Source of the DNA: Deltaproteobacteria bacterium
GTDB taxonomy: Bacteria > Desulfobacterota > DSM-4660 > Desulfatiglandales > Desulfatiglandaceae
DNA length: 33,979 nucleotides
Assembly: GCA_021737785.1 (NCBI GenBank)
Contig: JAIPDI010000054.1
Location: forward strand, 1 to 33,979
Direction: 5' to 3'
Shown one piece after another: positions 16,891 through 18,896 of this stretch. How positions within the stretch are numbered: the stretch's first letter is position 1; each line of letters begins with the position of its first letter. A program made the position numbers and the translations under genes. The notes under the pieces are model-generated. The model did not search any database, was not told the DNA's origin, and was given only the letters and a program-made list of their open reading frames with translations.

Positions 16891-17409
16891 ATGAGAGAAA
16901 GGGCAGGAGCCATAACGTTTAAGGGGAATCCCCTGACCCTGATGGGGAACGATCTGAAGGTGGGTGATGGGGCGCCTGACTGTACGCTGATGGGAAACGA
17001 TCTATCGGCCGTAAAACTGTCGTCCTACCGGGGGAGGGTGTGCATCCTCGCCGCGGTCCCTTCCCTGGATACGCCGGTGTGCGATATGGAGACCCGGCGG
17101 TTCAACCAGGAGGCCGGGGGTCTGGGCGATGTGGCCATCCTGACCATCAGCATGGATCTCCCGTTTGCCCAGGCCAGGTGGTGCGGGGCCGCGGGGGTGG
17201 ATAAGGTCGTCACCTTGTCCGATCACAAAGACGCGGCCTTCGGAGAGGCCTATGGGGTCTTGATCAAAGAACTGCGGTTGCTGGCCAGGGCCATCTTCGT
17301 GGTGGACAGGGAAGGGGTCATCCGGTATATCCAGCTGGTCAAGGAGATGACCGAGGAGCCGGATTATGAATCCGTGCTGGCCGCGGTCAAGAAGGCGACT
17401 GCCTCTTGA
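16891..17409 (+). CDS. tpx: thiol peroxidase Tpx
   Basis: Tpx is an atypical two-cysteine peroxiredoxin that reduces hydroperoxides using thioredoxin-type reductants. The protein has the family start (ITFKGNPLTLMG), the peroxidatic C64 in PSLDTPVCDMETRRFN and the resolving C98 in DLPFAQARWCGAAG, at the distance expected for Tpx. Length from ATG 16891 is 172 residues, normal for the family. GGGAGG 8 bases upstream supports this start; an in-frame upstream ATG at 16864 is less likely. It is followed after 114 bases by a glutaredoxin-like selenoprotein gene, so the two may form an oxidative-stress pair. Confidence 0.95.
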   Translation: MRERAGAITFKGNPLTLMGNDLKVGDGAPDCTLMGNDLSAVKLSSYRGRVCILAAVPSLDTPVCDMETRRFNQEAGGLGDVAILTISMDLPFAQARWCGAAGVDKVVTLSDHKDAAFGEAYGVLIKELRLLARAIFVVDREGVIRYIQLVKEMTEEPDYESVLAAVKKATAS

Positions 17410-17523: not shown

Positions 17524-17736
17524 ATGAAAGAAGAGGTGAGGATATACGGGAAGTCAGGGTGACCGTATACGGCAAATGCCAGGTCGGCATACCCCAATGC
17601 GGTCTATGTGGATGTCAAGAAAGACAAGAAAAAGCTGGACGAAATGCTCCGCTTTTCTAAAGGTGCCAGAGAAGTCCCGGTGATTGTTTCAGGCGATCAG
17701 GTAACTATTGGCTATGGCGGTACCTGAGGCGTCTGA
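17524..17736 (+). CDS. UXX-star-like selenoprotein with two UGA (Sec) codons
   Basis: If UGA is read as selenocysteine (U) this is a 70-residue glutaredoxin-like protein: ATG 17524, RIYGKSGUPYTANAR with U13 at 17560-17562, VYVDVKKDKKKLDEML, a cis-Pro loop EVPVIVSG, then IGYGGTUGV with U68 at 17725-17727 and a final TGA at 17734. U13 sits where glutaredoxins have the nucleophilic Cys of CPYC. U68 sits three residues from the end, matching the C-terminal U-x-x-stop that gives 'UXX-star' selenoproteins their name as I recall it. Each UGA is followed at the right distance by a hairpin. Sequence on both sides of each UGA remains protein-like, which argues against a pseudogene. The gene follows tpx. 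Standard gene calling misses it because of the UGAs. Confidence 0.85.
17560..17604 (+). promoter_or_regulatory. bacterial SECIS candidate at Sec codon 13
   Basis: Directly after the U of the first UGA, GACCG (17561-17565) can pair with CGGTC (17600-17604). Inside this an apical stem ATGCC (17576-17580) pairs with GGCAT (17586-17590) around the loop AGGTC, which carries the G-U expected for SelB binding. The apical stem begins 13 bases after the UGA, close to the spacing of E. coli-type elements. Confidence 0.7.
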
Positions 17737-17756
17737 TATTTCATCGGCGATGAGAT
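17725..17756 (+). promoter_or_regulatory. bacterial SECIS candidate at Sec codon 68
   Basis: Ten bases after the second UGA, ATTTCATC (17738-17745) pairs with GATGAGAT (17749-17756) around the loop GGC, with one G-U pair. The element begins in the last codons and extends past the final stop codon, as expected when Sec lies near the C-terminus. Confidence 0.6.
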
Positions 17757-17786: not shown

Positions 17787-18896
17787 TCACGCAAAGAGGG
17801 ATAAAGGGAGATGATCGGCCAAGAGGAATCCTTCCTCGGTCGGGATAACCCTTCCTTCCCGGACCTTAACGTATCCGCCCTTCTCCATCCGTGACAGGAG
17901 TGCGCCTGAGTCAGGTACAGATAGGATCTGTCTCAGATCAACCCCTTCCCGGGTCCTGAATCCGAGGGCCAGGGATTCGAGCCGCATCTGTTCTTCTGTC
18001 AGGGTTTCCCGTCCTTCTATCGGCGGTTTCCCCTTGTCCAGTTCGGCCCCATACCCTCTGACGGACCGGATATTCCACCAGCGGTCGTTCCCATCAAAAG
18101 AGTGGGCCGACGGGCCCAGCCCCAGGTAGGGGACATGCTGCCAGTACTTGCGGTTGTGCCGGGAGCAACAGGCCTCGCTCCCGGCATAGTTGGAGACCTC
18201 GTAATGGATATATCCGGCCGCCCTCAGGAGTTTAGACGCGGCAACAAAACAGGCCCGGCCGTCCTCCTCGTTCATTGGACGGATGACTCCCTTTTGTTTC
18301 AGCCTGTCAAAGACAGTCCCCTTTTCAATGGTCAATTCATAGCAGGAGACATGCTCGGGCGCATATGAGAGGGCGCATTTCAGGGTGTTCGTCCACGCGT
18401 CAACGGATTGTCCCGGCAGGCCGTATATCAAATCCACCCCCACATTGTGGAATCCGAAACGCCTGAGGCGTGCCAGTGCCCCCTTTGCGTCCTCTGCGGT
18501 ATGGCGCCTGCCCAGGAAGGCGAGTGCGCGGTCGTCAAAGGATTGAATCCCCAGATTGATCCGGTTGCACCCCAGGTCTTTCAGCAGACGCACTTTTTTC
18601 TCTGAGAGGTCGGAGGGGTTGGCCTCGACAGTGAATTCCGTATCGCCGGCAAAATCAAAGTGGGTGAAGAGATGGTCCACCAGGCCGGAGAAGACCCGGT
18701 CATTCAGGAAGGTGGGGGTGCCGCCGCCGAGATAAAGGCTGTCAAATCGATTGAAGCGGCTTTTGTATAAGAGGACTTCCTTTTTAATGCCTTCGAACCA
18801 GATGGGCACGGGCGCGGCCGAAGGTATGGAATAAAAGCCGCAGTAGGGGCATTTGCTCCGGCAGAAGGGGACGTGGACATAGAGGCCCGGGGACAT
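17787..18896 (-). CDS. hemW: radical SAM heme chaperone HemW
   Basis: HemW is a radical SAM protein that binds and delivers heme and was formerly annotated as oxygen-independent coproporphyrinogen oxidase. The 369-residue protein has the cluster motif C12-RSK-C16-PY-C19 followed by GF, the SAM-binding GGGTPT and the substrate-region signature HNRKYW (CSRHNRKYWQHVPYLGLG) that marks HemW rather than HemN. It lacks the fourth Cys and extra N-terminal residues of true HemN. Its ATG follows the lepA stop codon without any gap, so translation is probably coupled. The gene converges with the selenoprotein gene, 50 bases away. Confidence 0.93.
   Translation of the reverse strand: MSPGLYVHVPFCRSKCPYCGFYSIPSAAPVPIWFEGIKKEVLLYKSRFNRFDSLYLGGGTPTFLNDRVFSGLVDHLFTHFDFAGDTEFTVEANPSDLSEKKVRLLKDLGCNRINLGIQSFDDRALAFLGRRHTAEDAKGALARLRRFGFHNVGVDLIYGLPGQSVDAWTNTLKCALSYAPEHVSCYELTIEKGTVFDRLKQKGVIRPMNEEDGRACFVAASKLLRAAGYIHYEVSNYAGSEACCSRHNRKYWQHVPYLGLGPSAHSFDGNDRWWNIRSVRGYGAELDKGKPPIEGRETLTEEQMRLESLALGFRTREGVDLRQILSVPDSGALLSRMEKGGYVKVREGRVIPTEEGFLLADHLPLSLFA

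Follow-up and report, generated by a model that had tools for sequence, protein, structure and literature searches.

The closest described system is the UXX-star selenoprotein family 1 of NCBIfam (NF041114), which appears in a 2026 review list as "Distant Grx-like protein 1" with a UxxT motif and two selenocysteines (Sec) (PMC13188914). The same protein, with its UxxT motif, is also included in a list of 2022 (PMC9312934), and the main text of the 2008 GOS paper, which reviews cite for UXX-star family 1, contains no description under that name. A SECIS element downstream of the stop codon has a precedent in recombinant thioredoxin reductase in Escherichia coli, which shares with the UXX-star gene a near-C-terminal Sec and a bacterial SECIS in the 3' UTR, but that construct is engineered and its protein unrelated, unlike the natural UXX-star gene (PMC11431864).

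The window, i.e., the whole analysed stretch of 33,979 nucleotides, contains a gene of this kind on the forward strand (17524–17736), comprising 70 codons and a UGA stop, as read directly from the window. Its 70-residue product, MKEEVRIYGKSG-U13-PYTANAR...GYGGT-U68-GV, is interrupted by in-frame UGAs at codon 13 (17560–17562) and codon 68 (17725–17727), and the frame is ended by a third UGA (17734–17736), located three codons past Sec68 at a position conserved in relatives. The complete product is MKEEVRIYGKSGUPYTANARSAYPNAVYVDVKKDKKKLDEMLRFSKGAREVPVIVSGDQVTIGYGGTUGV. The end coordinate 17756 given in the initial annotation is the final base of a downstream hairpin; the frame itself ends at 17736. 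The product matches NF041114 over model positions 1–70 of 70 with 111 bits (cutoff 72); the proposed 70-codon frame with glutaredoxin-like sequence flanking both UGAs is confirmed. The broader and less specific subfamily model NF041212 (Uxx-star family glutaredoxin-like (seleno)protein) is also passed, with 78 bits against a cutoff of 66. UXX-star families 2 (NF041211) and 3 (NF047338) are similar in length and sequence pattern, but their scores of 44 versus 100 and 41 versus 97 bits are far below the cutoffs. Codons 13–16 read UPYT, i.e., the UxxT motif with an in-frame UGA, and the C-terminal end reads UGA-GGC-GTC-UGA, which bears out the proposed U-x-x-stop ending. In full-length match, UxxT motif, two Sec and C-terminal U-x-x-stop the gene agrees with the NF041114 family, from which it shows no essential difference, the adjoining tpx gene being peculiar to the present genome. 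The gene is real, codes for a glutaredoxin-like protein with two predicted Sec residues, and is a typical representative of a bacterial family that has been catalogued before.

All genes sought for Sec insertion were found in the genome: selA (617 bits), selB (397 bits), selD (373 bits) and selC, a tRNA-Sec with anticodon TCA. A second tRNA-Sec match (L036) was rejected as a tRNA-Trp. The selD gene (L040) itself carries an in-frame UGA in the motif GSGUASK, and SelD is predicted to be a selenoprotein. Genome-wide reassignment of UGA was also rejected, as UGA serves as an ordinary stop codon elsewhere, for example in tpx.

Of 85 genomes of the class, 27 contain a match to NF041114 above the cutoff, as do 99 of 395 genomes sampled from the phylum; named records carrying the family come from Desulfobacteraceae, Syntrophaceae, Nitrospirae, Methylomirabilota, Acidobacteria, Planctomycetota and Pelotomaculum. 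Two further genomes of this genus (G001 and G002) were searched and lack the family, hinting at loss or transfer. UGA is kept at both sites in relatives from Desulfobacterota, Nitrospirota, Methylomirabilota, Planctomycetota, Acidobacteriota and Pelotomaculum. Sec occupies both sites in 102 of 119 aligned rows and the combination Cys13/Sec68 is found in 10, the rest being gaps or rare changes, while in the named set the corresponding figures are 61 and 18 of 81. As the two sets share some genomes, the combined counts (U at both sites in 163 of about 200 homologue rows, Cys13/Sec68 in 28) include rows that are partly from the same genomes. Site 13 is thus U or C in nearly all homologues. Several unusual members and one relative were observed. 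The related glutaredoxin-like gene L029 (G022:C79:9511-9705) encodes a single Sec, in the motif UPYC, and lacks the C-terminal one. L071 and L135 (G437:C16:100071-100271 and 100496-100696) form a tandem pair of double-Sec genes separated by about 225 bp, and a post-stop hairpin accompanies each of the two. L019 (G058:C1:435879-436013) is an apparently decayed copy whose N-terminal half is out of frame and in which TCA replaces the stop after UGV, so that the frame runs on.

The structure model (pLDDT 82; elements E5-9 H14-22 E27-30 H35-45 E53-56 E59-62) matches NrdH and glutaredoxins over residues 1–66 with Z of about 8, a value not decisive alone that agrees with the profile match to 2klx (E 7e-7). 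The product is predicted to adopt a minimal fold of the glutaredoxin/NrdH type (beta-alpha-beta-alpha-beta-beta) that lacks the last helix. Glutaredoxins begin this helix at the place corresponding to Sec68, which follows the last strand. The thioredoxin-like core and the nucleophile position are common to the product and to glutaredoxins and NrdH-redoxins, including cGrx1 (7c10 and 7c12), the selenoprotein glutaredoxin of Clostridium oremlandii; unlike these proteins, the product has Thr in place of the second Cys, a C-terminal Sec and no last helix. The initial annotation had described the first motif as CPYC-like: UGA is indeed at the glutaredoxin nucleophile position, but the motif is UPYT and the second Cys is absent. 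Replacement of this Cys by Thr16 is family-wide, Thr16 being almost invariant (113 of 119 aligned rows), and the product lacks the CxxC of dithiol glutaredoxins.

Sec13 could make the nucleophilic attack in an exchange of the disulfide or glutathione type. Since the second active-site Cys is missing, Sec68 on the C-terminal tail may take its place as a resolving or relay residue, operating via a selenenyl intermediate or a diselenide. For this redox mechanism, with Sec13 attacking and Sec68 resolving, we consider the chances about even; electron exchange between the two Sec residues, as originally suggested, is possible. The main functional rival keeps the double selenoprotein but assigns to its Sec residues the binding of a metal or metalloid instead of thiol exchange. 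The 2026 review suggests metal coordination, or contact with unknown substrates, as possible roles of Sec in the UXX-star families (PMC13188914), but site 13 coincides with the nucleophile of glutaredoxins and is occupied by Cys in some homologues, the fold is that of NrdH/glutaredoxin, and no conserved gene neighbourhood indicating metals was seen. Metal binding is rather unlikely, though a serious contender.

Alternatively, the product could be dedicated to reducing Tpx, the thiol peroxidase encoded next to it. The tpx gene (16891–17409, + strand; NF001808, 214 bits; start codon assumed) lies upstream in the same orientation, its end 114 bp away, and a natural Prx-Grx hybrid (1nm3) is among the fold matches. 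At no other locus examined is tpx found near the gene, and no conserved neighbourhood was revealed across the loci: the largest cluster of neighbours, with a representative of the response-regulator type, lies at widely varying distances. The gene hemW (17787–18896, – strand; TIGR00539, 249 bits), the convergent downstream neighbour, is present near the gene in several relatives and serves here as context only. The idea of electron exchange with Tpx therefore lacks comparative support, a tpx partnership as a general feature was rejected, and a role as dedicated reductant of Tpx appears improbable.

One could suppose that UGA13 alone encodes Sec, while UGA68 is a normal stop and the downstream Gly-Val-stop arose by chance; an in-frame stop does follow just three codons on, and a product of 67 residues would still span the glutaredoxin core. 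The relatives argue strongly against this. Site 68 is UGA in 113 of the 115 rows with a letter there and in 80 of 81 rows of the named set, the remaining row being a gap; UAA or UAG in its place was seen neither in the 119-row alignment nor in the named set. A stop is found as the third codon past this site in 108 of 113 cases in the alignment and in 79 of 80 in the named set. Of 161 distinct tails, 119 have Gly at codon 69 and every one has Val or Ile at codon 70, the third positions of both codons being free and near random; conserved codons with such third positions are the mark of translation past the second UGA. Together with the covariation of the second hairpin, described below, these data make termination at UGA68 highly implausible. 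A gene near a contig end (L046, G084:C96:17-214) has TGG (Trp) at site 68 and is otherwise a typical member, probably reflecting a point change or a sequencing error.

Each UGA is followed by its own hairpin. Hairpin 1 (17576–17590, + strand) has a 5-bp stem (17576–17580/17586–17590) and an AGGUC loop that starts 18 nt past UGA13; hairpin 2 (17738–17756, + strand), located wholly 3' of the stop codon, has an 8-bp stem (17738–17745/17749–17756) and a GGC loop, also starting 18 nt past UGA68. The published bacterial SECIS model requires an apical loop 16–37 nt past the UGA, a G in the first two loop bases, a stem of 4–16 bp and a minimum free energy of at most -7.5 (PMC13188914). Both hairpins agree with it in loop distance, loop G and stem length, and their energies, computed on the 43 nt after each UGA, are -14.4 and -10.3, respectively. 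The fold energies of the window sequence alone are unremarkable (z of -1.7 and -0.8), and an Rfam scan of the window gave no match at the gathering score. The above-chance signal lies in conservation and covariation across relatives rather than in single-sequence energy.

For hairpin 1, 96% of cells are paired, and covariation is 0.383 against 0.177 in shuffled alignments, the variation being limited by coding. A stem of at least 4 bp is present in 106 of 144 Sec13 genes versus 7 of 29 Cys13 genes (p about 1e-6, uncorrected for relatedness), pointing to decay of hairpin 1 where site 13 is Cys. Among 24 distinct class sequences, hairpin 2 has 87% of its cells paired and both-side changes at all 8 pairs, and its covariation reaches 0.684 against 0.246 when shuffled (0 of 500) and at most 0.184 when the structure is slid. 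In the 161 distinct tails its loop most commonly begins 18 nt past the UGA (59 tails; 17–20 nt in 126), 154 have a G among the first two loop bases, and the stem starts past the stop codon in nearly all. The proposal of a separate, suitably spaced hairpin for each UGA is thus upheld by both the published model and the compensatory changes in relatives. That hairpin 2, lying just 3' of the stop and ahead of a convergent gene, is a transcription terminator and not a SECIS is scarcely credible, because a T-rich tract follows it in only 7 of 161 family tails, a terminator scan was negative there, and its loop G and fixed distance to UGA68 match the SECIS model (PMC13188914).

Altogether, comparative evidence (family membership, the sel genes, conserved UGAs, Cys13 homologues, the conserved Gly-Val-stop and covarying hairpins) strongly supports a UXX-star family 1 gene in which both UGAs are very probably decoded as Sec, as the initial annotation had supposed; none of the findings that would contradict it (no sel genes, neither Cys nor Sec at the two sites, or homologues always ending before the second UGA) was encountered. 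SelB and Sec-tRNA would decode UGA13 via hairpin 1 within the coding region and UGA68 via hairpin 2 just beyond the stop codon, whereas translation would terminate at UGA71, which lies too close to the loop for a SECIS to act on it. The UGA-to-loop spacing of hairpin 2 is 18 nt for UGA68 and 9 nt for UGA71, compared with 16–37 nt in the published model, and is the likely discriminator between Sec and stop. UGA serves as the stop past Sec68 in 82 of the 161 tails, against a share of 38% among neighbouring ORFs at least about 200 aa long, indicating that UGA is not avoided as a stop there. The joint reading, in which this natural family uses a 3'-UTR SECIS to make UGA68 Sec and the UGA nine bases on a stop by spacing alone, and in addition operates a diselenide or selenium relay, is less likely than not as a whole; its decoding half, i.e., the 3'-UTR SECIS and spacing-based choice between Sec and stop, is likely.

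The position of hairpin 2 past the stop codon is an unusual placement for a SECIS, and the most interesting features of the gene are this post-stop SECIS and the pair of Sec and stop UGAs nine bases apart. The double selenoprotein is already known as a family, of which the present gene is a new member with clear translation signals and a predicted function. Gene callers miss or truncate double-Sec genes such as those of UXX-star family 1, and their accurate annotation requires the second SECIS past the stop codon. UXX-star family 1 with its post-stop SECIS looks like a widespread natural exception, and offers a compact test case for the UGA–SECIS distance separating Sec from stop within one transcript.
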